Shown: piece after piece, positions 11,441-25,974 of the stretch | How positions within the stretch are numbered: the first letter of the stretch is position 1 | How the letters are laid out: each line of letters starts with the position of its first letter | IMG/VR virus record: IMGVR_UViG_3300033149_006339 | Location: 1 to 27,175 of that record | Length of the DNA: 27,175 nt | Origin: a virus | Direction: 5' to 3' (one strand) | The notes under the pieces: generated by a model | The model's input: only the letters and a program-made list of their open reading frames with translations | The model's database searches: none | Told to the model about the DNA's origin: nothing | Made by a program: the position numbers and the translations under genes

Positions 11441-11488
11441 GTTAATCAATTAACAAAGTTGATCAATCAACAAAGTTGATCAATCAAC
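11441..11488 (-). repeat. Three-unit 17-bp array of GTnnATnnATnnAC palindromes
   Basis: Three 14-bp palindromes, GTTAATCAATTAAC (11441-11454) and GTTGATCAATCAAC (11458-11471 and 11475-11488), are separated by AAA, so the period is 17 bp. A degenerate fourth unit may overlap the portal start codon (11424-11437). It lies in the gap between TerL and portal. Arms of 6 nt with a 2-nt centre suit a protein operator or an RNA hairpin. Confidence 0.8.
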
Positions 11489-11496
11489 AAAAATTA

Positions 11497-13032: not shown

Positions 13033-13459
13033 TGTTTATATCGACTAATAATTTAGCCAAAGAAAAATTACCCTGAATATTTACATTTTTTGGTTTTCCT
13101 AAAACACGATCAAGGGCATAAATAATCGCATTGAGCGACGGAGGGGTTTTGTAATATTTAATAACCTTATTGTCTTTATCAACCTTGACAGCAACATGGA
13201 CCCCTTCAATCAATTCAAATAACTTATCCGTTATCCATTTTCCCCTATTTCCAATCCTTTTAACTACTCTTTCCTCTAATTTTTTCCTAACATCCTGTCT
13301 CCTGCCAGCAATAACTTTTGTGTTTCCTAAATAATATTCTGTAACTAATTTTTCAAGACCTTTATTAGAAGCATCAGTTATTACCATATCCTCTCCTCTT
13401 CGCTCTAATAATTTTCTAATTTCTCTAACTTCTTTTGCAGATTGGCTTATTTTTGGCAT
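12938..13459 (-). CDS. terS: Terminase small subunit
   Basis: This is a 173-residue protein just upstream of TerL. Residues 1-45 (SAKEVREIRKLLERRGEDMVI) and 60-100 (RRQDVRKKLEERVVKRIGNRGKW) look like the N-terminal DNA-binding/helical part. Residues about 115-140 (KYYKTPPSLNAIIYALDRVLGKPKN) give the oligomerisation/linker helix expected for TerS, and the end is a polar tail overlapping TerL for 95 nt. The start is ATG 13459. The upstream region holds terminator, palindromes and a large inverted repeat that could be the packaging site it recognises. Confidence 0.75.
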   Translation of the reverse strand: MPKISQSAKEVREIRKLLERRGEDMVITDASNKGLEKLVTEYYLGNTKVIAGRRQDVRKKLEERVVKRIGNRGKWITDKLFELIEGVHVAVKVDKDNKVIKYYKTPPSLNAIIYALDRVLGKPKNVNIQGNFSLAKLLVDINNGNNRQDNNEKVSEKSHLLYRENVGLESSAG

Positions 13460-13470
13460 TAGTTAATAAA

Positions 13471-13519
13471 GTAAATAAATTTACAAAATTAATTGATAAA
13501 TAAAAGTTAATTGATTAAC
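13471..13519 (+). repeat. Palindrome array upstream of TerS
   Basis: GTAAATAAATTTAC (13471-13484) and GTTAATTGATTAAC (13506-13519) match the GTnnATnnATnnAC rule. A decayed unit (13488-13501) lies between them at the 17-bp period. The array sits 11 to 60 nt before the TerS start codon, between it and a terminator. Confidence 0.7.
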
Positions 13520-13522
13520 AAA

Positions 13523-13547
13523 AACCCCAAGGATGAACCTTGAGGTT
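13523..13547 (-). terminator. Rho-independent terminator before terS
   Basis: On the minus strand AACCTCAAGG pairs with CCTTGGGGTT (10 bp including one G-U), with a 5-nt loop, followed by TTTGTT. It would end leftward transcription coming from upstream just before the terS leader, so packaging genes would need readthrough or their own promoter. A candidate promoter on the minus strand is TAGATT-17-TATAAT at 13640-13612. Confidence 0.7.
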
Positions 13548-13567
13548 AATGTCAGGTAATCTGAATA

Positions 13568-13754
13568 TAGAAACCATCAACTTTTCGGGCAGATTATTAA
13601 ACACAAATAAAATTATATTTTTTTCACTACGCAGAATCTATACGATGGCCAGCGATCGCATAATTCTCCGTAATGAAAAATCAATAAAGTTAATTAATCA
13701 ACAAAGTTGATCAATCAACAATTTTATTAACAATCTACCTATGGATGGTTTCTA
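13568..13754. repeat. Nested inverted-repeat region (possible pac site or origin)
   Basis: Three nested arm pairs share one centre. The outer pair is 13568-13578 with 13744-13754 (11 bp perfect). The middle pair is 13591-13600 with 13727-13736 (9 of 10). The inner pair is 13620-13637 with 13663-13680 (16 of 18). The inner loop contains GCGATCGC. It lies between TerS and the nuclease gene, with no ORF. This is the usual place of a packaging initiation site, but a replication origin or structured RNA is equally possible. Confidence 0.6.
13689..13719 (+). repeat. Two-unit palindrome array
   Basis: GTTAATTAATCAAC (13689-13702) and GTTGATCAATCAAC (13706-13719) are separated by AAA (17-bp period). 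They lie inside the nested inverted-repeat region, in the right half. The first unit has one mismatched arm position. Confidence 0.7.
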
Positions 13755-13755
13755 C

Positions 13756-13785
13756 GTATCGCTAGTACACCAACCCTAACGATAC
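13756..13785 (+). other. Stem-loop with ACACCAA loop
   Basis: GTATCG (13756-13761) pairs with CGATAC (13780-13785). After one mismatch, TAG pairs with CTA, leaving the 10-nt loop TACACCAACC. The loop resembles the ATACACCARA loops at 15438, 17794, 19066 and 19441, but shifted by one position. The transcribed strand is not known here. Confidence 0.5.
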
Positions 13786-13811
13786 ATCATACCTATTATG
13801 AAGTATATATC

Positions 13812-13851
13812 AAAAAATAAAAAAAGTCAAGGTTTTATTGTGGATAACCTT
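13812..13851 (-). terminator. Terminator at end of VRR-NUC gene
   Basis: On the minus strand AAGGTT (13851-13846) pairs with AACCTT (13834-13829) and is followed by GAC and a T-rich tract. The stem overlaps the stop codon (13829-13827). Its loop contains TTATCCACAA, an exact DnaA-box match, probably by chance. Confidence 0.65.
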
Positions 13852-14202: not shown

Positions 14203-14253
14203 GTTGATAAATCACGAGCATGGATGGGGATTTTTCCCTAGAAATAAAGGAAA

Positions 14254-14309
14254 GGGAGTTGGGGATTGGGAGTTGGGGATTGGGAGTTGGGAGTTGGGAG
14301 TTGGGGATT
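14254..14309 (+). repeat. G-rich heptamer tandem array (8 units)
   Basis: Eight contiguous 7-bp units follow the order GGGAGTT, GGGGATT, GGGAGTT, GGGGATT, then three GGGAGTT, then GGGGATT. Every unit has three or four Gs, so G-quadruplex formation is possible on this strand. It lies in the divergent non-coding region between the leftward nuclease gene and the rightward early genes. A role in replication initiation or control is possible; heptamer arrays of this kind also occur as neutral repeats in other bacteria. Confidence 0.85.
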
Positions 14310-14371
14310 GAAAATTATTGGTCTTGACTTTTTCCTAAGAGCAGGTTCTAATACAGATAGCTGATTCTTAT

Positions 14372-14395
14372 ATATATGTATATATATACATATAT
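14372..14395. repeat. 24-bp AT-only-type palindrome
   Basis: A perfect 24-bp palindrome centred at 14383/14384, AT except for one G and one C at 14378 and 14389. It lies 60 nt from the heptamer array. Easy melting or cruciform extrusion suits an unwinding element. The rest of 14310-14578 holds no ORF that I support, only AT-rich sequence and a 10-nt A-run near 14435. Confidence 0.7.
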
Positions 14396-14578
14396 TTTTT
14401 TTTCAATATTAGGGTAACATACAAGTTAACGTTAAAAAAAAAACATTTAGGGTATACTCCTCTCTACGATAGGGCTAACTGATTTTGTATAAATATAGTA
14501 AAAATGAGGGTTTTTGCTATTTACAAAATTAAAAGATGTTGTGTAATTTATTATCTGAGGGGGTGTTGATAACTACTA

Positions 14579-14619
14579 TTGACAAATTTTGGTAGAGAGT
14601 TACCATATAGATATGGTAA
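14579..14619 (+). promoter_or_regulatory. Early promoter with overlapping palindromic operator
   Basis: TTGACA (14579-14584), 16 nt, TACCAT (14601-14606). A 20-bp palindrome (arms 14600-14608 and 14611-14619, TTACCATAT/ATATGGTAA) covers the -10 region and the ATG at 14613. The transcript would begin at or next to the ATG, giving a leaderless message. The protein encoded is a ribbon-helix-helix type, so auto-repression is likely. Confidence 0.65.
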
Positions 14620-15017
14620 AGAAACATAAAATCTTCCTAATGATGTCGGATCGTGAAAAGGAAATCTTGGAAGCTATTAAGGAGAAATTAGGTGGTAATA
14701 CCTCTGAAATTATTAGAGGACTTATTAGAGAGAAATATGTCAAGATGTTTCCTGAATATACTCAAGCTAAGAAAGAGAAGACTCCTAGACAGAAATTTTT
14801 TGATTCTCTTGAGTTACAGGAGCCTAAGAAACTTTGTGAATTTTTAGGTGGTGAGATAGTGATAGATGAGGGAATAGAAAAGTGTTTTAAAGGTAAAGTA
14901 ACTCCTTATGGTAGAAGTGGAACTTATTTAGATTTAAAGAAAAGTGTTTTGGTTCCAGAGATAAAGGCCAGATTTAATGCTGGTGAGATAGATATACCAG
15001 AAGAATTTTTAAAATAA
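14613..15017 (+). CDS. Ribbon-helix-helix regulator
   Basis: This is a 134-residue protein counted from ATG 14613; the upstream in-frame TTG (14589) lies inside the promoter and is rejected. Residues 3-11 form a short strand (KKHKIFLMM), 12-26 a helix (SDREKEILEAIKEKL) and 29-44 the second helix (NTSEIIRGLIREKYVK), the classic MetJ/Arc/CopG fold with the N-T-S-E-I-I motif. The C-terminal 80 residues (about 55-134) are an unrecognised domain with KLCEFLGGEIVID and GRSGTYLDLKK. It is the first gene of the rightward region, under an operator-bearing promoter and closed by a terminator at 15043-15072, so it is probably a phage repressor or early regulator. Confidence 0.75.
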   Translation: MVKKHKIFLMMSDREKEILEAIKEKLGGNTSEIIRGLIREKYVKMFPEYTQAKKEKTPRQKFFDSLELQEPKKLCEFLGGEIVIDEGIEKCFKGKVTPYGRSGTYLDLKKSVLVPEIKARFNAGEIDIPEEFLK

Positions 15018-15042
15018 ATTGGCCATAACATCTTTTGGCCAC

Positions 15043-15072
15043 ACCCCCCTATTTTTTGAGGGGGTCTTTTTT
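15043..15072 (+). terminator. Rho-independent terminator after RHH gene
   Basis: ACCCCC (15043-15048) pairs with GGGGGT (15060-15065), 11-nt loop, followed by CTTTTTT. It separates the regulator gene from the next promoter at 15274. From 15073 to 15273 there is no ORF I can support. The stretch holds a small hairpin (GTTAGA/TCTAAC at about 15086-15102), a CCCCTAA/TTAGGGG pair (15074-15080 with 15198-15204), and a GC-rich patch near 15115. Confidence 0.8.
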
Positions 15073-15273
15073 ACCCCTAACTTCTGTTAGATAGTCTCTA
15101 ACCTTGACCACCTTTTCGCGCGGGGGTCGGCTCGTTTTCTGTTTTTATGGAAACATTGATAAACTTTAGTAAAAAATAATAAAAAAACAAAATGATTTTT
15201 AGGGGTTAGGTAAAAATATAGTAAAAATGCGATTTTTAGGTTCGCTTTATATAATGAAATGCGTTATTAACAC

Positions 15274-15301
15274 TTGACAGATTTTCTGGGTTTGATATAC
15301 T
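15274..15301 (+). promoter_or_regulatory. Promoter for structured RNA/early transcript
   Basis: TTGACA (15274-15279), 16 nt, TATACT (15296-15301). The predicted start at A15308 coincides with the first paired base of the RNA described next. Confidence 0.75.
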
Positions 15302-15307
15302 CCCTTT

Positions 15308-15479
15308 AGAGAGTTTAAAAAAAAAGGAATTAAAAAATATAAAATATAGAGGCCAACAAGTAAGAAAAACATCTGGGCTTTAATCTATATTTTATATTCC
15401 GGCCACTAAACACTGGCCACTAAACAAGAGTTTAAACACACACCAAAGTTTAGATTCTTGTATCTCTTTTAAACTCTCT
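15308..15479 (+). ncRNA. Structured RNA closed by a 13-bp end helix
   Basis: P1 pairs 15308-15320 with 15467-15479 (13 bp, perfect). P2 pairs 15336-15350 with 15384-15398 (15 bp, perfect, 33-nt loop). P3 pairs 15424-15437 with 15448-15461 (14 bp including G-U pairs) around the 10-nt loop ACACACCAAA. A 12-nt direct repeat (GGCCACTAAACA, 15401 and 15415) lies between P2 and P3. G-U pairs appear only on this strand, so the RNA is the plus-strand one. The 5' end equals the predicted transcription start. It may be a discrete ncRNA or the first part of the leader of the gene at 15587. After it (15480-15557) only small hairpins are seen. Confidence 0.7.
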
Positions 15480-15586
15480 CCGGGAGTCGCAATTGAATAA
15501 ATTGCCCTTCTCTTTTAGGGTTTTCTCGGAGGTCAACGTAGTAAAACCTTTAAATTACCAGTTAACCGCTGGCTGGTTCATTAAAA

Positions 15587-15895
15587 ATGGCAATTAAAAT
15601 TGTATCTACTAAAACATTTAATAAACCATATTGGAATAAAAACGATATTGAAAACTGGTTGATTAAAAATGGAGTTAAAAATAATGATTATGTATCTATA
15701 GATGGAGTTAATAATAGAGTTTATGATGTTCTTAAAATTCAAGAAGTTAAAGAATATATCCCTGCTATACCTAAAATTAAATTGAAACTAAAAAGAATAG
15801 TAAATAAATATGGTTGTCAATATCAAGTTTATTATAAGATATTAAAAACTTGGAACGATGAGGTTGAAAATAGTTTTTATTTGAGAATATATTGA
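15587..15895 (+). CDS. Unrecognised 102-aa early protein
   Basis: The family is not recognised. It is lysine/asparagine-rich and looks mixed alpha/beta. Residues 1-35 (IKIVSTKTFNKPYWNKNDIENWLIKNGVKN) and 40-60 (SIDGVNNRVYDVLKIQEVKEY) show a strand-turn-helix order. The C-terminal part (PKIKLKLKRIVNKYGCQYQVYYKIL) is basic. No Shine-Dalgarno sequence precedes the ATG; a boxA-like GGTTCATTAAAAA runs up to the start codon. The leader segment 15558-15576 is complementary to 15911-15928 behind the stop. A nucleic-acid-binding small early protein is a guess. Confidence 0.6.
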   Translation: MAIKIVSTKTFNKPYWNKNDIENWLIKNGVKNNDYVSIDGVNNRVYDVLKIQEVKEYIPAIPKIKLKLKRIVNKYGCQYQVYYKILKTWNDEVENSFYLRIY

Positions 15896-15900
15896 AACTA

Positions 15901-15932
15901 TATCCCGGCTCCACCAGCGGGGGGCTGGGATA
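15901..15932 (+). other. Hairpin whose loop can pair with the gene's own leader
   Basis: TATCCCGGC (15901-15909) pairs with GCTGGGATA (15924-15932, one G-U). The loop contains CCACCAGCGG (15911-15920), complementary to CCGCTGG-c-TGG (15566-15576) just before the start of the 102-aa gene. No T-run follows. Confidence 0.55.
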
Positions 15933-16623
15933 CTCTCCACCTTAACAACTGATTATAAACTCTATTATAGCGGTTCTTATTTATGACTAAAAAAGCAATG
16001 ATTAAATATATTTCATCTTTTGAAATCTACCCTACAATGAATAGCTGGAATAGAAAATATGGCTATTCCTTCAATGTTAAAATTTATAATTTACCATTAA
16101 AAGATGAAGAAAAAAATAAATTATATGAAATCATAGGAGATGAAAATTTATCAGAGTGTTTTTATACAGATATTTATGATTTAATTGAAGTATGGAGATA
16201 TGCGAATATTAAATTGTTTGGGGTGCATAGAGATGAAAATATTAAAAATATAGAATATCCTAATTTTACAGCTTTTCTTAACGGCAGAAGTTCAGGACAT
16301 TTAGTTTTAGGTAAATGGAACGGCTACAATTATTGTGGTTCTGGCTGGTGTTTCACAGAGGAGGAATTAAAAGATATGTCTAAAGAAGATGTAAGATATA
16401 TTTACAAAGTATTAAGAGAATTTGAAAAATTATATAAAAGCATTATCAAATTATGTAGATATTATGCCAACCGCAAAATAGAAGAAAAGACAATAGAGGA
16501 AGTAAAAACAATAAAATATAAAACCTTTACTGATTAAATTATTAACTCAATCGTGGGTTAATTACAACATCCGCTAACACCGCAATTGATAGAGTTTATA
16601 ATTAGCTTTTAGGGTGGAGAGTA
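15931..16623 (+). other. Gene-bracketing RNA complementarity (about 39 bp) around the 184-aa gene
   Basis: Upstream segments 15931-15945, 15949-15967 and 15970-15974 are complementary, in the right nested order, to 16609-16623, 16587-16605 and 16579-16583. They give 15, 19 and 5 base pairs, separated by a symmetric 3 by 3 internal loop and a small inner loop. The three non-Watson-Crick positions are all G-U on the plus strand. The helix ends 8 nt before ATG 15983. The 16538-16608 stretch also holds a local hairpin (ATTAAC/GTTAAT). Confidence 0.75.
15983..16537 (+). CDS. Unrecognised 184-aa early protein
   Basis: The family is not recognised. The protein is rich in aromatic residues and appears globular, alpha/beta. 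Conspicuous motifs are FLNGRSSGHLVLGKWNGYNYCGSGW (about 95-118; NGRSSGHLVL is typical of small phage proteins of unknown role) and a C-terminal helical, lysine-rich part (about 125-184). There are three cysteines but no clear metal site. Its start has no Shine-Dalgarno; GGTTCTTATTT directly precedes ATG. The gene is enclosed by the long complementary arms described separately, so its translation or mRNA stability is likely structure-controlled. Confidence 0.65.
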   Translation: MTKKAMIKYISSFEIYPTMNSWNRKYGYSFNVKIYNLPLKDEEKNKLYEIIGDENLSECFYTDIYDLIEVWRYANIKLFGVHRDENIKNIEYPNFTAFLNGRSSGHLVLGKWNGYNYCGSGWCFTEEELKDMSKEDVRYIYKVLREFEKLYKSIIKLCRYYANRKIEEKTIEEVKTIKYKTFTD

Positions 16624-16632
16624 GATAATAAC

Positions 16633-16654
16633 AAAGAACATCGGCGGGTTCTTT
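16633..16654 (+). other. Leader hairpin with ATCGGCGG loop
   Basis: AAAGAAC (16633-16639) pairs with GTTCTTT (16648-16654), loop ATCGGCGG. The loop can pair (8 bp, one bulged G) with CCGCCGGAT in the loop/stem of the terminator at 17206-17240. The hairpin ends 9 nt before ATG 16664, and its 3' arm is part of a boxA-like GTTCTTTAAAAAC. Confidence 0.65.
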
Positions 16655-16663
16655 AAAAACAAT

Positions 16664-17161
16664 ATGCAATTTAATTTCGCAACTTTAAGGCAATACTTGC
16701 AAGATTTATTTTTTAATCCTAACAACAACATCAAAAGACACGCTAAAGGATTATTAAAAGAGATAGATAAAGACAATAAACTAAAAGATGAGATTGACAC
16801 CTTGCTTGTGGTAAAAGATGATAAAGAAGTTTTAATTGATATATGGAGGAGGAAGGAGCGTTTATACTGGACAGAACAAGCTGAACAGGCAGCAAAAGAT
16901 ATTTTTAATTCAATGATAGATAAATATGACAAAGATTATACAGAAAGGCAAAAAGATGATTATTTTAATGATTACGCAATGGAATATATAGAAGGATATT
17001 TTACCTATTATCACACAGCTTGGGAGTATTTAATGGTTGCATCTCCGGAATATGAAGGCGAAGTGTTTGATACTACTTCACCGGTAGATAACCAAATCAC
17101 ACAGCTGGCAATTACAACCTTCACAAACCAAGTAAGAGATTATTATGACAGAATAAAATAA
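16664..17161 (+). CDS. Unrecognised 165-aa acidic helical protein
   Basis: The family is not recognised. It is strongly helical and acidic with repeated polar helices (residues 25-60, KRHAKGLLKEIDKDNKLKDEIDTL) and aromatic-rich parts around 95-125 (YFNDYAMEYIEGYFTYYHTAWEYL). There is no signal peptide or membrane helix. Acidic, aromatic small early proteins of phages often mimic DNA or bind host proteins, but nothing specific shows this. The leader hairpin and the downstream terminator carry complementary loops, so expression of this gene and of the one behind it may be coupled. Confidence 0.65.
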   Translation: MQFNFATLRQYLQDLFFNPNNNIKRHAKGLLKEIDKDNKLKDEIDTLLVVKDDKEVLIDIWRRKERLYWTEQAEQAAKDIFNSMIDKYDKDYTERQKDDYFNDYAMEYIEGYFTYYHTAWEYLMVASPEYEGEVFDTTSPVDNQITQLAITTFTNQVRDYYDRIK

Positions 17162-17205
17162 TTTATATTATTCTCTTCTTATCTCGTGGGTATAACCCAC
17201 TACAT

Positions 17206-17240
17206 AAAAAGACACTATGACCGCCGGATAGTGTCTTTTT
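17206..17240 (+). terminator. Strong rho-independent terminator
   Basis: AAAAAGACACTAT (17206-17218) and ATAGTGTCTTTTT (17228-17240) form a 13-bp perfect stem with loop GACCGCCGG and a U-run in its 3' arm, and the sequence after it is AT-rich. A further small hairpin (GTGGGT/ACCCAC, 17186-17200) precedes it. It lies between the 165-aa gene and the 144-aa gene, which has no clear own promoter, so readthrough or antitermination is needed. Confidence 0.85.
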
Positions 17241-17275
17241 ATTATTTTATTAACTTTTACAGCTCTTTAACTTAA

Positions 17276-17710
17276 ATGTCCGGTAGCGATGATTGGTTTA
17301 AATTTATGACTACTACTAATGGCTTTACTAAAATAAACAATACCCAGCGCAAGGCGTTTGCTCAACTTATAGAAAATAAAACAGGTAAAAAAAGAGATGA
17401 TGATGATTTTGAAATATTAAAAGAAAAAGAAATGAAAAAAGAATTAGAGCGTTTAAGGAAAAAATACAAAAAAGAAATTGAAATTTATTTAAAAGGGAAA
17501 CAAGCAGAAAGAAAATTAGAAAAGGTCGGTTTATATACAAGTGGTGATGAAATTGAATTAGGTTGGAGATTAAAAGAAAAAATTGAAGCAAAGATTAAAT
17601 CAAAAAACAACCATTATAAAGAAAAAGCTATCAGGGATATTTGGTCGGTTCAAACATTGGAGGAAGCTAAAAAAATTGTAGATGATTACTTCTCCCTGTT
17701 CATAGATTAA
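17276..17710 (+). CDS. Unrecognised 144-aa lysine-rich coiled-coil protein
   Basis: The family is not recognised. Residues 1-30 include SGSDDWFKFMTTTNGFTKIN; residues 40-85 are a charged helix/coiled coil (KRDDDDFEILKEKEMKKELERLRKKYKK). The rest is helical with a C-terminal IDDYFS-like aromatic end (IVDDYFSLFID). There are no cysteines, membrane segments or enzyme motifs. The ATG lies inside the boxA-like/complementary arm 17261-17284, and no Shine-Dalgarno precedes it. It probably needs readthrough of the terminator 17206-17240. Confidence 0.6.
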   Translation: MSGSDDWFKFMTTTNGFTKINNTQRKAFAQLIENKTGKKRDDDDFEILKEKEMKKELERLRKKYKKEIEIYLKGKQAERKLEKVGLYTSGDEIELGWRLKEKIEAKIKSKNNHYKEKAIRDIWSVQTLEEAKKIVDDYFSLFID

Positions 17711-17716
17711 ACCATT

Positions 17717-17766
17717 GTAGATTTATTTACTTTTGTAGATTTATTTACTTTTGTAGATTTATTTAC
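17717..17766 (+). repeat. Three-unit palindrome array (GTAGATTTATTTAC)
   Basis: Three identical units, GTAGATTTATTTAC, at 17717, 17735 and 17753, separated by TTTT (18-bp period). It belongs to the same GTnnATnnATnnAC family as those near portal and TerS, in reverse orientation (A-run on the other side). It follows the 144-aa gene stop by 6 nt. Confidence 0.8.
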
Positions 17767-17781
17767 TTTTATTTAAATTAT

Positions 17782-17815
17782 CTATTGGCTGTTATACACC
17801 AAAAACAGCTAATAG
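17782..17815 (+). ncRNA. Stem-loop with ATACACCAAA loop
   Basis: CTATTGGCTGTT (17782-17793) pairs with AACAGCTAATAG (17804-17815), 12 bp with one G-U, around the 10-nt loop ATACACCAAA. It is one of five such stem-loops in the window. The stem is unrelated in sequence to the others. Confidence 0.7.
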
Positions 17816-17878
17816 GTTGGCTAATTAACTCAATCAATCACTCGCCGGACATTTAAGTTAGGGAGTTATAATTTGGTT

Positions 17879-17909
17879 GTAGGTTTATTTACTTTGTAGG
17901 TTTATCTAC
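17879..17909 (+). repeat. Two-unit palindrome array
   Basis: GTAGGTTTATTTAC (17879-17892) and GTAGGTTTATCTAC (17896-17909), separated by TTT (17-bp period), 11 nt before the ATG at 17920. It is the second unit group of the family in this intergenic stretch. Confidence 0.7.
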
Positions 17910-17919
17910 TTTCATAATT

Positions 17920-18075
17920 ATGGAATATCAATATCAGCAAAAAAACTTTAATGAAACCTTGATTAAAAAGCAACATAAAAAAGATTGCCGGCTGTTTATT
18001 TTGGGAATAGCCGGCGTGGTCGTTTATTACATTATAATGGCGCTTCTGTTTTGTCGGGAAGCGTGCGTATTATGA
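17920..18075 (+). CDS. Small single-pass membrane protein (51 aa)
   Basis: This is a 51-residue frame (ATG 17920 to TGA 18075). Residues 1-23 are polar (QYQQKNFNETLIKKQHKKD), residues about 25-44 are a hydrophobic segment (LFILGIAGVVVYYIIMALLF), and the end carries two cysteines (LLFCREACVL). It reads as a small membrane protein, N-terminus in the cytoplasm. The stop overlaps the ATG of the next gene (ATGA), which supports it as real. The role is unknown; small membrane proteins in this position can be lysis-timing or exclusion factors. Confidence 0.55.
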   Translation: MEYQYQQKNFNETLIKKQHKKDCRLFILGIAGVVVYYIIMALLFCREACVL

Positions 18076-18308
18076 GGGTTGGAGAAAAAGTAAAAGTTAT
18101 CAACACTCATATTAAAAACAAGCCCCGCGCTTTTGCCGGAGTGTTGGAAAAAATCGGGCGGTTTAGGTCGGGGTTTGTTTATGGTCGTGTTTACAATTCT
18201 GATACAGGGGAAAGATATTACTTTGCTATTACTGATGTCTATCCCCTGAATAATAATGAAAAACCGCAGGAAAAACAACAAACAGCGCAGGGTAATATGC
18301 TTTTTTAA
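18072..18308 (+). CDS. Small beta-barrel/KOW-like protein with clamp-motif-like end
   Basis: This is a 78-residue protein from ATG 18072 (ATGA overlap with the previous gene); a longer start at 17985 lies inside that gene and is rejected. Residues 1-60 look like a small beta-barrel (EKVKVINTHIKN...FAGVLEKIGRFRSGFVYGRVYN...YYFAITDVYPL), with the EKVKVI...GVLEKIG pattern of SH3/KOW-like folds. The tail is a flexible linker ending in QGNMLF at the very C-terminus. That resembles sliding-clamp-binding peptides (Q-x-x-[LM]-[LF]-F-like), and a clamp-like gene lies two genes on. This link is inference. Confidence 0.6.
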   Translation: MRVGEKVKVINTHIKNKPRAFAGVLEKIGRFRSGFVYGRVYNSDTGERYYFAITDVYPLNNNEKPQEKQQTAQGNMLF

Positions 18309-18411
18309 AGGAAAGGCAAAAGATTTAATGCCGTTTCTTAAAGTTTTGGCTCGTGAATATGAAAACGGGCTGGTCGGTTATATTAATGGCAAGTATATTT
18401 ATCTTAACTGA
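18256..18411 (+). CDS. Small basic protein (51 aa)
   Basis: This is a frame from ATG 18256 (overlapping the previous gene by 53 nt) to TGA 18411; an internal ATG at 18328 is preceded by AGGAAAGG, one of the better Shine-Dalgarno matches, and would give 27 residues. The longer product has an RR/KK-rich start then GKAKDLMPFLKVLAREYENGLVGYING. The end (about 25-51) looks like a short alpha-beta piece (FLKVLAREY, GLVGYINGKYIYL). No family is recognised. Either start may be used. Confidence 0.45.
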   Translation: MKNRRKNNKQRRVICFFKGKAKDLMPFLKVLAREYENGLVGYINGKYIYLN

Positions 18412-18429
18412 TAGATATATTTATAAATT

Positions 18430-19041
18430 ATGCTTTACAATAAATTTAATTTAGAAGTTAGTAAGTTTGCAGGAGATAGTTATGGTTCTAAACCAGAGTT
18501 AGGGGGAGTGTTCTTTACTTCTCGGGCGACAGCGGCAAGCGATGGTTATAAATTGATAGAAGTTAGTGTTCCAAGCGAGTTGAAGCCGGAGGAATACCCG
18601 AGTGTTAACGGAAAGAAAGCGATGAGGGGTTGCCGCCCGTTTATAGTGCCGGCGCCGGCGTTGAAGGAAATTAAGATAAATAATGGTAGTTCGTTGCCAA
18701 TATTGAATTGTATAGGTGTTGGTCATTTAGATAAGGAAAAGGTGGAGTTTTTAAATACCAACCTTGATGAGAGTGAAATTAAAACTATTAAAAAAATAGA
18801 AGCAAAGTATCCGGATTATCAGCAGTTGTTTAATCAAGAAAAGCCAGTATTGGAAATATCGGTTAATGCTAAATACTTAAAAGAAATAATGGACTTTATG
18901 AGTAAATTCGTTGATACGGGGTCAAAAGAAGTAAAAATAAAACTTTATGGTTCAAATAAGCCGATTATGTTTACAGCGGAAAATAACAGCACTCGCCAGA
19001 AAGTTCGGGCTTTGTTGATGCCGATTACTACAACTAAATAA
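18430..19041 (+). CDS. Short DNA sliding clamp-like protein
   Basis: This is a 203-residue protein, whose C-terminal part (about residues 130-200) resembles the last domain of bacterial beta clamps (DnaN): PVLEISVNAKYLKEIMDFMSKF, KEVKIKLYGSNKPIMFTAENN, then the near-terminal RALLMPI that corresponds to the Y-x-LMPM-x-L end. The N-terminal part contains RATAASDGYKLIEVSVP, like the a-TDG-y-rL strand of clamps. At 203 residues it is much shorter than DnaN (about 370), suggesting two rather than three domains. It may be a phage clamp or a clamp paralog interfering with the host clamp. No Shine-Dalgarno sequence is seen. It lies just before a large structured RNA. Confidence 0.65.
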   Translation: MLYNKFNLEVSKFAGDSYGSKPELGGVFFTSRATAASDGYKLIEVSVPSELKPEEYPSVNGKKAMRGCRPFIVPAPALKEIKINNGSSLPILNCIGVGHLDKEKVEFLNTNLDESEIKTIKKIEAKYPDYQQLFNQEKPVLEISVNAKYLKEIMDFMSKFVDTGSKEVKIKLYGSNKPIMFTAENNSTRQKVRALLMPITTTK

Positions 19042-19050
19042 GGCGCTTGA

Positions 19051-19460
19051 TGTTGCCGGTTATACATACACCAGAGTATAGTCGGCAACAATGAGGCGCT
19101 TTGTAAATTTATTTACCTTAACATCAATAATTATTAAGACAAACAGAGAATGGTTAAGTTCGGTTGTCGGTTAAACTCACCGCGCCATTAAAACTTAATG
19201 CTGGCTGTTTGCTTGAAATTATTGATTGCGCCTCAACCTTGACATCAGCTTGTTTAAGCCGGTAATGCCCTTTCCGTTAATAAGGGCTGGCGTATCGGAA
19301 ATAGACGATTGGGCATAGGGCAACCGCAGAGCTTGGGACTATGAGGGAAACCTCCTCTCAAGCGGCAACTCTATTGTGATTTACCCGGTATCACATAAAT
19401 AGAACCGGGAGCGTTGCAGAGGGGCGCAATGAGTTTAAATATACACCAAAATTTAAACTC
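19051..19460 (+). ncRNA. About 410-nt structured RNA with pseudoknot
   Basis: Elements in order are as follows. Stem-loop 19051-19090 (15 bp, two G-U; loop ATACACCAGA). Palindrome unit GTAAATTTATTTAC (19103-19116). A 22-bp helix 19123-19146 with 19205-19226 (two bulged As). A closing helix 19226-19234 with 19421-19429 (one G-U). Hairpin GCTTGGGA/TCTCAAGC (19331-19338 with 19356-19363) with an inner GAGG-GAAA-CCTC tetraloop. An H-type pseudoknot: 19375-19380 with 19390-19395, and 19384-19389 with 19404-19409. Hairpin 19431-19460 (10 bp, loop ATACACCAAA). All wobble pairs fit plus-strand RNA. There is no ORF I can support in 19042-19542. A standalone RNA or a large leader of the next genes; no match to a named class is known to me. 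Confidence 0.7.
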
Positions 19461-19542
19461 GTTAAAAATCTGTCTTTAAAATTTGAATATCAAAAGCGTC
19501 CGGCTTAAAGCGGTGAGGCGTTTTTTGGTATTCGCTTTGTTT

Positions 19543-19749
19543 ATGAAAAAAAATAAAAAAACATTTTATCATAACATTTGCTCTATAGAGCATTGTGGAA
19601 AAATAGCTCGCTTTAGAGAATTCAGAATATATGAAATTTGGTCGTTAGATGAAGAAGGAGATGTTAAAAAAATGATTTATAAAGAAAATGAATGTGATGA
19701 GGATTTGGCATTGTGCGAGGAACACGCTCGTGAAGCGGGCTGGATATAA
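19543..19749 (+). CDS. Small zinc-ribbon-like protein
   Basis: This is a 68-residue protein from ATG 19543; the longer frame from TTG 19483 starts next to the RNA's last hairpin and adds a basic stretch of little sense. Pattern: a lysine-rich start, then CSIEHCGKIARF (C-x4-C), an intermediate strand region, and ECDEDLALCEEHAREAG (C-x2-H). The C-x4-C...C-x2-H arrangement is a zinc-binding motif seen in small phage and bacterial proteins. Its role is unknown. It ends just before the palindrome that precedes the helicase gene. Confidence 0.65.
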   Translation: MKKNKKTFYHNICSIEHCGKIARFREFRIYEIWSLDEEGDVKKMIYKENECDEDLALCEEHAREAGWI

Positions 19750-19750
19750 A

Positions 19751-19764
19751 GTTGATCAATCAAC
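19751..19764 (+). repeat. Single GTTGATCAATCAAC palindrome before helicase start
   Basis: A perfect copy of the unit seen near portal and TerS, preceded by AAA, ending 4 nt before the ATG at 19769. If it forms a hairpin in the mRNA it lies where a ribosome binding site would be; if it binds a protein it may be an operator. Confidence 0.75.
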
Positions 19765-19768
19765 AATC

Positions 19769-21391
19769 ATGATACTAACCAAAGAGGATAATTTAATAGG
19801 AATTAAATTTGATTATAACTCCAGACTGGTAAATTTAGTTCGGAGTTTGTCTTATAGGCAGTATAATCCGGAAAAAAAGATGTGGACTATTCCGTTGGCT
19901 GGCTCTGAAGCATCTCTTCGGAGGTTGCTTAGGGCGGGATTTAAAATGGACAGCGAATTGGAAGATGCGTTAATACAAGAAAAAGAATTGAACGATGAGA
20001 TTAAAAAATTGATTAGCCGGTCTTCAGCAGAATTTCCTACCTCTCTTCCTCTGCTTAACTATCAGAGGGTGGGGGCGAAGTTTTTGGATAAGATTGGCAA
20101 TGGTTTGCTTGGCGATAGTATGGGGCTGGGAAAAACTATTCAGGCGTTGGCGATATTGGAAAAAAACAAGCCGGAAAAAGTTTTGATTATATGTCCGGCT
20201 ATATTAAAACATCAATGGAAATCAGAAATTGAGAAATTCGGTTTGGGTTGGTCGGTGGTTATTATTGAAGGAAATATCAGAGAGAGGAGAGAATTGTGGA
20301 AAAAAGAAGCTATGGTTTATGTGGCTAACTACGAATTATTGTTAAGGGATTTTGAAATGATGAATATGAGAAATTGGGATTATATTGTGGCTGACGAAGC
20401 TCATAGGATATCTAACCCGTTTGCTAAGCAGAGTAAGGCAATCAAAAGATTAACAAGCAAAAAAAGACTGGCTTTGACTGGTTCGCCTATAAGCAACAGG
20501 GCTGATGAATTGTGGAATATATTAGATTTTTTAAATCCCGGATGTGTCGGAAATTACTTTGAGTTTGTAAACAGATATTGTATTAAAAATCAATGGGGGG
20601 GAATTTTTGCTTATCAAAATTTAGAGGAGCTCAAGGAAAAAATAAAAAGATATATGATTAGGAGAACCAAGGAACAGGTTTTAAAAGAGTTGCCGGATAA
20701 AATAATTACCGAAATGCCGTTCAGGTTAAGCGACGAGGAAAGGAGTTTATATTCCTACATAAAAGAGGAAATTTTATATGAAATTAAAAAATCGGATATA
20801 AGCAAGATAGAAAATCCGATGAGTATTCAGCAGACATTGGTTAAGTTATTACGGCTTCAACAGGTGGTTAATTCAATGGAATTGGTTGGGGAAAGGCAAA
20901 AATCAAGCAAATTGGAGCTTTTAAAGGAATTATTGGAAGAGGGAATAAACAATGGGCAGAAAGCATTGATATTTACTAAGTTTGAAAAGATGACACCTAT
21001 TTTAGCCAGAGAGTTAAAGGAATACAATCCGGTTATTATTAGCGGAAAAATAAATGAAAAAATAAGACAGCAATATGTAAAAGATTTTAATGAAAAAGAA
21101 GATAATAAAATTCTCATAAGCACAAGTGCCGGTAATTACGGATTGAATTTGCAGAGAGCCAACCTCGTATTCCATTATGACCAAGAGTTTTCATTGGCGA
21201 AAATGGAACAAAGAACCGGCAGGGCTTATCGGATTGGACAAAAAAATAAGGTTTTTGAATATCATCTTTTGGCTAAGGGAACGGTGGATTATCACTTCAG
21301 AAGGATTGTCAGGAGAAAAGCCGAACTTTCTGGCACGGTTCTCGGCGATACGCCGATAACAATGGCAGAAGTTCAGCAATTATTACTATGA
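19769..21391 (+). CDS. SNF2-family (SMARCAL1-like) helicase/translocase
   Basis: This is a 540-residue protein from ATG 19769; a longer frame from 19688 overlaps the preceding gene and lacks sense, so the later start is chosen. The N-terminal part (1-60: GIKFDYNSRLVNLVRSL-x-x-RQYNPEKKMWTIPL) matches HARP-like modules of SMARCAL1-type proteins. Motif I is GDSMGLGKT (115-123), motif II DEAH (199-202), motif III LTGSP (226-230), motif V STSAGNYGLNLQ (441-452) and motif VI QRTGRAYRIGQ (471-481). It is an ATP-dependent DNA translocase, probably for annealing or fork remodelling during phage replication. Its end overlaps the recombinase start (ATGA). Confidence 0.9.
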   Translation: MILTKEDNLIGIKFDYNSRLVNLVRSLSYRQYNPEKKMWTIPLAGSEASLRRLLRAGFKMDSELEDALIQEKELNDEIKKLISRSSAEFPTSLPLLNYQRVGAKFLDKIGNGLLGDSMGLGKTIQALAILEKNKPEKVLIICPAILKHQWKSEIEKFGLGWSVVIIEGNIRERRELWKKEAMVYVANYELLLRDFEMMNMRNWDYIVADEAHRISNPFAKQSKAIKRLTSKKRLALTGSPISNRADELWNILDFLNPGCVGNYFEFVNRYCIKNQWGGIFAYQNLEELKEKIKRYMIRRTKEQVLKELPDKIITEMPFRLSDEERSLYSYIKEEILYEIKKSDISKIENPMSIQQTLVKLLRLQQVVNSMELVGERQKSSKLELLKELLEEGINNGQKALIFTKFEKMTPILARELKEYNPVIISGKINEKIRQQYVKDFNEKEDNKILISTSAGNYGLNLQRANLVFHYDQEFSLAKMEQRTGRAYRIGQKNKVFEYHLLAKGTVDYHFRRIVRRKAELSGTVLGDTPITMAEVQQLLL

Positions 21392-21954
21392 AAGCCCCCA
21401 AGATAAAAATTAAATATTTAGATGCTGAACAGATTAGAGAAATTATAAGGGGAATACCCGCCACTGAATCGGGTTTGATGTATAAAACCCTGATTGTTGT
21501 TTTATTTACTACAGGATTAAGAATTAGTGAAGCGCTTAATTTAAAAATTAAAGATTTAAAACTTGATTCTAAGATAACTCAAGAGCTTGCTGTTGTGGGA
21601 AAGGGCGGATATACAAGAACGGTATACTTTAGTCCGGATACATTAAAAATGATAAAGAAATGGCTTAGTGTAAGAAAAGGAAAAAAATACAATAAACCAG
21701 ATAAGAGGGACAGGGTTTTTCCTGTCAGTGTTAGGTCTGTTCAAAAACAGATTAAAAAATGGGCTGACTGGGCCGGATTTGAAGCTACCCCTCATACTTT
21801 TAGGCATTCTTTTGCGGTTCACACCTTGTCAAAATTGGGAAATTTAAGATTTACTCAGGAATTTTTAGGGCATAAGAGTATTCTTAATACTCAAATCTAT
21901 ACTCAAATAACCAATAAACACTTACGAAAAGCTCATGAAGAGATTTTCACTTAA
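21388..21954 (+). CDS. Minimal tyrosine recombinase (catalytic domain only)
   Basis: This is a 188-residue protein with the whole catalytic set: R45 (TTGLRISEAL), K72 (VGKGGYTR), H136/R139 (HTFRH), H162 (LGHKS), and the nucleophile Y171 (TQIYTQ). The usual N-terminal SAM-like core-binding domain (about 80-100 residues) is missing, so it is much shorter than XerC/XerD. It may be an invertase/resolvase type, a dimer resolution enzyme, or an integrase that relies on partners. It is translationally coupled to the helicase. No attachment site can be identified. Confidence 0.8.
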   Translation: MKAPKIKIKYLDAEQIREIIRGIPATESGLMYKTLIVVLFTTGLRISEALNLKIKDLKLDSKITQELAVVGKGGYTRTVYFSPDTLKMIKKWLSVRKGKKYNKPDKRDRVFPVSVRSVQKQIKKWADWAGFEATPHTFRHSFAVHTLSKLGNLRFTQEFLGHKSILNTQIYTQITNKHLRKAHEEIFT

Positions 21955-23357: not shown

Positions 23358-24038
23358 TTATTTATTTATTAAACGACGGACTGCGGTTATGAAATCGCAT
23401 CCGTCTCTTTTCATTATAAAATCTATTGAATCCCCGGCTTCATTGCATCCATAACAATAAAAATGATTGTCCTTTAGATAAATCGCAAAGGAAGGATTTT
23501 TTTCCGGGTGAAAAGGACACAATCCCCACATTATATTGTTTTTCTTTTTTAATTGGCCGAAATAAAGAGAGTCTATGGGTATTTCCCGGGCTCGTTGAAT
23601 ATCAAAATCTGTTATCTTATTTGAATTTTGCTTGATTTCTTTTTTGTTTGGTCTTTTAAGTAGCGCTAAGTAAAAAGAATTTCTTTTTATCTTTTTTTCT
23701 TTATTTTCTTTAAGTGGTTCTAAAAATATTATATCTCTTACGAGAGTCCAGAACCACCTATCTTCCGGATTAGATTTAGAAAGAATTTTATTATTAAAAT
23801 TTATTCTTGTTTCTTCTGCTTGTTTTAAATCTTCTTTCCATTTTTTTATTTCTTGTTTGAGTTTTTTCTTAAGGTATGGTTTGGCGGCTGGAAAAATTTT
23901 TAACAATTCTTGAAAAGTATATCGGGGTTGAGACTCAAGCCATTGCTTTTCCAGTTTGTCAGCCAACATTATTTCTTCTTCATCATAAAGTCCGTATTTT
24001 CCTACATATTTATTTATTGACCAAAGATAATAAAGCAT
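23358..24038 (-). CDS. CHC2 zinc-finger primase-like protein
   Basis: This is a 226-residue protein. The C-terminal part (about 170-225) is a DnaG-type CHC2 zinc finger: WGLCPFHPEKNPSFAI, C174 and H177, then FYCYGCNEAGDSIDFIM, C195 and C198. The N-terminal 165 residues are helical and lysine-rich, unrecognised. No TOPRIM catalytic domain is present, so the polymerising part may lie elsewhere or be supplied by the host. In normal DnaG this finger is N-terminal, so its position at the end is unusual. It starts leftward from a divergent promoter region, with a DnaA box nearby. Confidence 0.8.
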   Translation of the reverse strand: MLYYLWSINKYVGKYGLYDEEEIMLADKLEKQWLESQPRYTFQELLKIFPAAKPYLKKKLKQEIKKWKEDLKQAEETRINFNNKILSKSNPEDRWFWTLVRDIIFLEPLKENKEKKIKRNSFYLALLKRPNKKEIKQNSNKITDFDIQRAREIPIDSLYFGQLKKKNNIMWGLCPFHPEKNPSFAIYLKDNHFYCYGCNEAGDSIDFIMKRDGCDFITAVRRLINK

Positions 24039-25547: not shown

Positions 25548-25754
25548 ATGGGTCGATTTAATTCATTAATAAACAATAAACTTATTATGCAATATATATT
25601 TCAAGAAATTACCCAGAATCCGAATTCAGTGGATGCGCCGGTAGTTCCAAGCGAAGATCAGAACGATAATTCCTCAGAAGAAAATCAAGAGTCGACACAG
25701 GAAGAAACCCCGGCAGAAGAATCAACAGAAACCGAAACTGTATCTACTGAATAA
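25548..25754 (+). CDS. Short acidic low-complexity protein
   Basis: This is a 68-residue frame; an internal ATG at 25587 is an alternative start. After a short start, residues 20-68 are an acidic stretch rich in E, S, T and N (SEDQNDNSSEENQESTQEETPAEE). It has no globular pattern and lies 12 nt after the nuclease gene. Acidic tails of this kind can mimic DNA or bind basic partners. The role is unknown; confidence that it is translated is moderate. Confidence 0.5.
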   Translation: MGRFNSLINNKLIMQYIFQEITQNPNSVDAPVVPSEDQNDNSSEENQESTQEETPAEESTETETVSTE

Positions 25755-25762
25755 TTTAGTTC

Positions 25763-25974
25763 TTTTCAATGCCCCCGACCGGTATTCTGGATCTGAAGGG
25801 AATTATCCCTGTCACGGCTATCCTTAAAGCCGTAATCAGATCTGGAATATACGAGTCTGAATAGGGTATCAGTTTGTCTGTAGAGGACGAACACTGGATT
25901 TAAACCAGTCGCCCTTAAACCAACATAAAACAACCAAATCCTTTTATTGCCCTATTCAGAGGGGGCATTGAAAA
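25763..25974 (+). ncRNA. 212-nt multibranched structured RNA
   Basis: P1 pairs 25763-25776 with 25961-25974 (14 bp, perfect). Arm A: 25784-25796 with 25836-25848 (13 bp, two G-U), carrying two small hairpins (AGGGA/TCCCT at 25797-25810; ACGGCT/AGCCGT at 25814-25833). Arm B: 25856-25866 with 25950-25960 (11 bp, abutting P1), carrying hairpins 25872-25878 with 25886-25892 (one G-U) and ACTGG/CCAGT (25893-25897 with 25905-25909), then about 40 nt unpaired. All wobbles fit the plus strand. No ORF covers it. Unknown class. Confidence 0.75.

Follow-up and report, generated by a model that had tools for sequence, protein, structure and literature searches.

The question raised by this locus is whether two complementary stretches that bracket a gene for a 144-aa protein act in RNA, as a long-range duplex hiding the start of the gene, or in DNA, as the borders of an invertible segment; both readings had been put forward in the initial annotation. 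The window is the whole 27,175-base virus record (GC 35%). Among the minus-strand genes, which extend up to 13459, are a terminase relative, a 664-aa ORF assigned as the portal from its position, and a weak major-capsid match. On the plus strand, genes begin at 14.6 kb and encode, among others, a weak ribbon-helix-helix candidate, a clamp-like protein, an SNF2 helicase and a tyrosine recombinase (Table 1). By eye, no clear Shine-Dalgarno sequence was found upstream of the 36 listed starts, and promoter-like sites are not clearly enriched in the region (37 found versus 29.8 expected, sd 6.1). Two further stretches stand out as side observations: a tandem 14-nt G-rich repeat (GGATTGGGAGTTGG) at 14249-14318, upstream of the ribbon-helix-helix gene, and 25751-25900, structured on the plus strand (z -5.7) within a 500-nt intergenic gap.

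Table 1. Coordinates of genes, predicted RNA elements and promoter-like sites in the window
Feature	Position	Strand	Remark
Intrinsic terminator of late leader (predicted)	13523..13547	-	
Putative late-leader / small RNA	13523..13795	-	structure, promoter-like site, terminator
5' hairpin of late leader, 12 bp, loop GGTTGGTGTA	13754..13787	-	complementary to H-a to H-d loops
Promoter-like TTGACT-17-TATACT of putative late leader	13802..13830	-	
Weak ribbon-helix-helix candidate	14613-15017	+	
Promoter-like TTGACA-16-TATACT	15274..15301	+	inferred transcript start ~15305
102-aa gene leader, structured	15305..15586	+	15305-15560 z -7.4
H-a, 14 bp, loop ACACACCAAA	15424..15461	+	
Hairpin, loop ACCAGCGG	15901..15932	+	7 nt complementary to 15566-15572 by eye; 6 nt to late-leader loop
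Arm 1, 37-position duplex	15931..15967	+	
184-aa ORF	15983..16537	+	distant gut phage contig relative
Arm 2, 37-position duplex	16587..16623	+	
7-bp hairpin before 165-aa gene, loop ATCGGCGG	16633..16654	+	
15-bp terminator-like hairpin, then T-rich stretch, loop GACCGCCGG	17204..17242	+	absent from terminators listed
Arm 1, long-range duplex	17257..17284	+	GCTCTTTAAC at 17262-17271, ATG 17276
144-aa ORF	17276..17710	+	alternative in-frame ATG 17309
H-b, 14 bp, loop ATACACCAAA	17780..17817	+	in 144-aa domain, 26 nt 5' of arm 2
Arm 2, long-range duplex	17844..17871	+	
H-c, loop ATACACCAGA	19046..19095	+	
H-d, 13 bp, loop ATACACCAAA	19428..19463	+	
188-aa tyrosine recombinase	21388-21954		XerC/XerA-like catalytic part; no N-terminal part matched
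Primase-like gene	23358-24038	-	

The pairing itself is as it had been described. Along their full length 17261-17284 and 17844-17867 pair at 24 of 24 positions (20 Watson-Crick and four G-U pairs, no mismatch), with a perfect 16-bp core formed by 17268-17283 and 17845-17860, and arm 1 does contain both GCTCTTTAAC and ATG 17276. Outwards, 17257-17260 and 17868-17871 contribute three more pairs and one C-A mismatch, which brings the duplex to 28 positions in all. It scores 52.0, whereas 400 dinucleotide shuffles of 15270-17950 reach 45.0 at best and 32.1 on average (Gumbel p ~1e-4), and the highest score among 15 shuffles of 14300-19700 is 39.5. When the whole early transcript is folded, 24 of the 28 pairs have a probability above 0.5, and the partition function of 15305-17930 keeps the duplex at a mean pair probability of 0.87. 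The duplex is real and above chance; the fold energy of 17240-17930 reaches only z -2.1, one of 20 shuffles being equally stable. The ORF that it encloses encodes a charged protein, rich in lysine and glutamate, for which a single-sequence model is all-helical at low confidence (mean pLDDT 57.8). The gene also contains a promoter-like site on the minus strand (17702-17675, 9/12), such sites being about as abundant as chance would give.

The further claim that the duplex hides the start codon holds in silico for ATG 17276, the opening of which costs 3.6 kcal/mol without arm 2 and 29.0 kcal/mol with it; it does not extend to the in-frame ATG 17309, which is hardly affected (7.7 and 10.6 kcal/mol, respectively). 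At the 184-aa start, adding the downstream arm raises the cost from 9.1 to 11.8 kcal/mol. Since these other starts are little changed, the lock is strong for one start only, ATG 17276, and weak for ATG 17309 and the 184-aa start. For ATG 17276 the message thus carries a 3' element complementary to its own translation start. The true start of the 144-aa gene could be ATG 17309, largely free of the lock. On the nascent message, closure would be delayed by translating ribosomes.

The 144-aa gene had been counted as the fourth in a row with such an arrangement. A long duplex does bracket the 184-aa gene as well as the 144-aa gene, while none was found at the 102-aa and 165-aa genes, where we observed only loop complementarities of 7 and 6 nt. 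The 184-aa duplex spans 37 positions and scores 66.5, compared with 52.0 for the 144-aa duplex; the partition function of 15305-17930 retains it at a mean pair probability of 0.90, and the fold of 15890-16665 reaches z -7.1. The start of the 184-aa gene lies outside arm 1, just inside the loop closed by the stem, and is not buried. At the 102-aa gene, CCGCTGG (15566-15572) is complementary, by eye, to the loop at 15914-15920, and before the 165-aa gene 6 nt of the loop at 16640-16647 are complementary to the loop of 17204-17242 (letter-shuffle p 0.011); both are suggestive only. Besides, 15711-15724 in the 102-aa gene is perfectly complementary over 14 nt to 15955-15968 in arm 1 of the 184-aa duplex, a match near chance that would make it a possible earlier-transcribed competitor for that arm. 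The broader expectation of a common plan in the early region, at the level of RNA, is borne out by the second duplex, the structured leaders and the repeated hairpins described below.

Both duplexes might nevertheless be stems for processing or stability only, at which RNase III would cut the early polycistronic RNA into monocistronic messages, with occlusion of the start being incidental or the true start being 17309. Stems bracketing the rRNAs are RNase III cleavage sites, and the geometry here is in line with such a role: the duplexes have 28 to 37 positions and each brackets one gene, the 184-aa start is unburied outside its stem, and ATG 17309 would give the 144-aa gene the same layout. 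However, ATG 17276 falls within the perfect 16-bp core, where the duplex is paired best, and a role of RNase III in the host is putative; we therefore regard a pure processing stem as rather unlikely.

The boxA-like motif noted in arm 1 invites a different explanation, in which GCTCTTTAAC would be a working boxA and would promote transcription antitermination through the terminator-like hairpin 17204-17242. The 10-nt motif is present and comes after this hairpin, CTCTTTAA occurs once on the plus strand of the contig, and a boxA-like GTTCTTTAAAAAC precedes the 165-aa gene. However, TTCTTTAA occurs seven times on the plus strand, mostly inside minus-strand coding regions, there is no boxB-like partner, and arm 2 is left unexplained. 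The identification of the motif as boxA is putative. With one match, and no clear Shine-Dalgarno sequence at the 36 starts, the boxA reading is weak and antitermination appears improbable.

Whether the arms act as RNA or as DNA can be judged from their wobble pairs: a role in RNA predicts an excess of G-U on the transcribed strand, and the helix scan that we used for this purpose scores G-T and A-C alike. Helices of the early region (n=19) contain 24 G-T versus 9 A-C (p 0.014), of which 6 and 2, respectively, come from the two duplexes; three control stretches give 6/9, 10/18 and 19/23, or 35/50 in total. Helices of the putative late leader, read on the plus strand, contain no G-T and 8 A-C (p 0.008); on the minus strand these 8 become G-U pairs, the pattern to be expected of an RNA from that strand. 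A count over the named helices (16 G-U, 2 A-C) is left aside as a test, since a scan favouring G-U supplied most of them. In the competing view, the tyrosine recombinase encoded at 21388 would invert the segment 17268-17860, with the arms as its recombination sites. In agreement with this, the perfect 16-bp inverted repeat has a spacing of 561 nt, and the 188-aa recombinase, which has the size of FimB-type invertases, is weakly similar to DNA invertases, with an E of 2.3e-12 and a score well short of the family cut-off. The sites are nevertheless not the near-identical inverted repeats of one recombinase. As DNA, the arms mismatch at 5 of 28 positions, four of which are G-U on the plus strand, and the unrelated pairs of the 144-aa and 184-aa genes have at most 5 nt in common, a misfit with sites of a single recombinase. 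Moreover, inversion would leave a headless ORF, and no promoter facing that ORF was found. The lean to G-U on the plus strand and the lack of a common core thus argue for RNA rather than an invertible segment, and we consider this alternative of the initial annotation very improbable. Still less tenable is a small one-gene mobile element with the arms as its terminal repeats: a single ORF does lie between inverted repeats in two cases, but no target-site duplication (by eye) or transposase family match was found, the termini of the two cases are unrelated, and the gut-phage contig with the 184-aa relative shows no bracketing repeats.

In addition to the duplexes, four plus-strand hairpins with 13 to 15 contiguous pairs (H-a to H-d) have a common 10-nt loop, AYACACCARA, on stems that differ, those of H-a and H-d being partly alike. 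Among the plus-strand hairpins of the whole contig, only four combine a 10-nt loop with 12 or more contiguous pairs, and all of them carry this loop; the minus strand has two hairpins of that class, one of which, at 13775, bears the complementary loop GGTTGGTGTA. Shuffled contigs give 0.85 such hairpins on average over both strands, with a maximum of 4 in 100 shuffles. H-c and H-d are held within 19041-19541, a 500-nt noncoding stretch (z -6.7) between the clamp-like gene and the helicase operon. The sole match to the AYACACCARA loop in IMG/VR was discarded as chance, as it falls inside a coding gene of an unrelated phage.

The complementary loop belongs to a putative late-leader RNA, directly 5' of the minus-strand gene at 13459, the first of the late genes. 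The fold of 13520-13830 reaches z -10.4 on the minus strand versus -6.1 on the plus strand, and the most structured of 1,082 tested 150-base windows is 13601-13750 on the minus strand (z -8.1). Among ORFs of at least 20 aa inside the leader on the same strand, the longest has 23 aa (13613-13684), and a 29-aa ORF (13515-13604) overlaps the leader end. Searches of the 27175 bases against Rfam at gathering score returned no match, and weaker searches for known RNA families were also empty; group I introns and ribozymes were dropped as candidates on this account. The loop GGTTGGTGTA is complementary over 8 nt to two of the four target hairpins, over 7 nt plus a G-U pair to H-c and over 7 nt to H-a, and a second leader loop, CGCTGGCC, has 6 nt of complementarity with the loop of hairpin 15901-15932. 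When the loop letters are shuffled, the probability that either of the two leader loops matches any of the four target loop types over 8 nt is p 0.006, and that of such a match plus another of at least 6 nt is p 0.0005, both values being optimistic because the loops were noticed before the test. Loop-loop pairing extends over 7-8 nt only. Judging by this complementarity, the late-leader RNA would possibly help in shutting off early genes.

Two other sequence features touch the leader. A stretch of 20 nt at 19748-19767, directly before ATG 19770, likely the helicase start, is perfectly complementary to 13703-13722 of the putative leader RNA, a match that may merely be a shared DNA operator. The palindromic 14-mer GTNNATNNATNNAC recurs at 11441-11490, 13471-13519, 13689-13721, 17717-17768, 17877-17912, 19103-19116 and 19751-19764, the two copies at 17877-17912 being variants; its context is mostly AAA..AA and tandem spacing is often 17-18 bp. 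Copies lie directly 5' of the starts 11426, 13459, 17920 and 19770 and also within the late leader. They are operator-like sites, with the weak ribbon-helix-helix candidate as a possible ligand.

Relatives of the region were sought at several levels. For the 144-aa protein, neither 50,697 phage records nor a peptide-pattern search of IMG/VR yielded a match; no relative of the 567-aa helicase or the 203-aa clamp-like protein was found in IMG/VR, and scanning the same database with a motif of the 184-aa protein was likewise fruitless. One 4,985-bp contig encodes a terminase 63% identical to that of the window, and it does not reach the early region. Scanning species genomes with the terminase alignment gave no relative, and a motif scan of these genomes yielded 8 loci, all without a tblastn match to the terminase of the window. 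When 15270-19560 was compared with phages by blastn, nothing was returned, and blastn of the late-leader region returned one 27-base match (E 0.3), taken as chance. The 165-aa protein had two weak matches (E 0.6). The 184-aa protein has a relative on the gut phage contig MT837153 (E 6e-6, 30.6% identity over residues 2-109); that contig has 11 listed inverted repeats, none of which flanks the gene, so that here a member of the family occurs without the arms. As no relative with the region was found, the whole case comes from one contig.

Known systems resemble the locus in parts. In PMC6733600, which also mentions the MS2 maturation-gene leader, the hok and aapA type I toxin mRNAs are described as forming a 5'-3' long-distance interaction, which nucleolytic 3' trimming can release; as in those mRNAs, a far-downstream element here pairs with the translation start of its own message. 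The differences are that the product is a charged 144-aa protein and not a small hydrophobic toxin, that there is neither a clear Shine-Dalgarno sequence to mask nor an established cis antisense RNA covering the gene, and that the gene lies in a phage operon. The MS2 maturation gene is translated only until a slower, stable fold closes, a leader-local cloverleaf. Translation only before closure of a stable fold is likewise proposed here, but in a DNA phage transcript rather than an RNA phage, and with the closing partner 3' of the stop codon. In satellite phage P4, the CI RNA pairs with seqA and seqC in the early transcript, according to PMC4825925. The predicted RNA of our locus is similarly complementary to repeated sites of an early transcript; however, whereas CI originates from the same leader transcript and works through termination, this RNA would come from the opposite strand, with its own promoter-like site and terminator, and its contact would be loop to loop. 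The locus belongs to neither the hok/aapA nor the P4 CI type, as there is no small hydrophobic toxin and the RNA is not from the target leader. The kissing loops of ColE1 RNA I and RNA II are complementary hairpin loops of similar size, but RNA I is a cis-antisense RNA with complementary stems, whereas here the complementarity is in loops only and involves four targets. The 6S RNA of lambda PR'-tR' is a short terminated RNA from the head of the late operon, as predicted for the late leader, and it is not known to pair with repeated early hairpins. The phage small-RNA review PMC12197685 names 6S among phage sRNAs, and neither there nor elsewhere in the literature covered, which included few subscription papers and no preprints, did we meet the present arrangement, so that its novelty is provisional.

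We give about even chances to an overall reading in which early genes are shut off at the RNA level, by fold-back closure together with contact from a late-leader RNA; its functional steps, transcription and kissing in vivo among them, we infer. In the early plus-strand transcript of a tailed phage, the duplex would serve as an RNA element. After transcription of about 570 nt past the start codon, arm 2 would fold onto arm 1 and place the 144-aa gene in one domain, with ATG 17276 buried. The protein would then be made mainly from nascent or trimmed message, in a time window before closure, and the closed 28-position duplex would bar new ribosomes and offer a lasting double-stranded site for RNase III-type cleavage, window and stem alike being read from the geometry. 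The 184-aa gene would likewise be closed by its 37-position duplex, with its start just inside the stem. Concomitantly, the structured RNA from the head of the late operon would kiss the four shared-loop hairpins, one of them within the 144-aa domain, and would help to switch early genes off once late transcription begins; such contact may repress, stabilise or titrate, and its direction is presumed.

The complete scheme, an early-to-late switch of a tailed DNA phage made by RNA, in which a late-operon RNA kisses four hairpins, duplexes close the domains, one of them burying a start codon, and early translation stops when the domain is complete and late transcription sets in, is tentative and somewhat doubtful in our view. 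Fold-back locks spanning a whole gene are chiefly known from the mRNAs of type I toxins and from RNA phages. If true, the scheme would place two such locks in one early operon of a DNA phage, beside a family of near-identical loops and a complementary late-leader RNA, and RNA-only timing of phage development would become open to direct test. It would also caution that structured intergenic RNA may carry regulatory logic in uncultured phages where protein annotation gives nothing.
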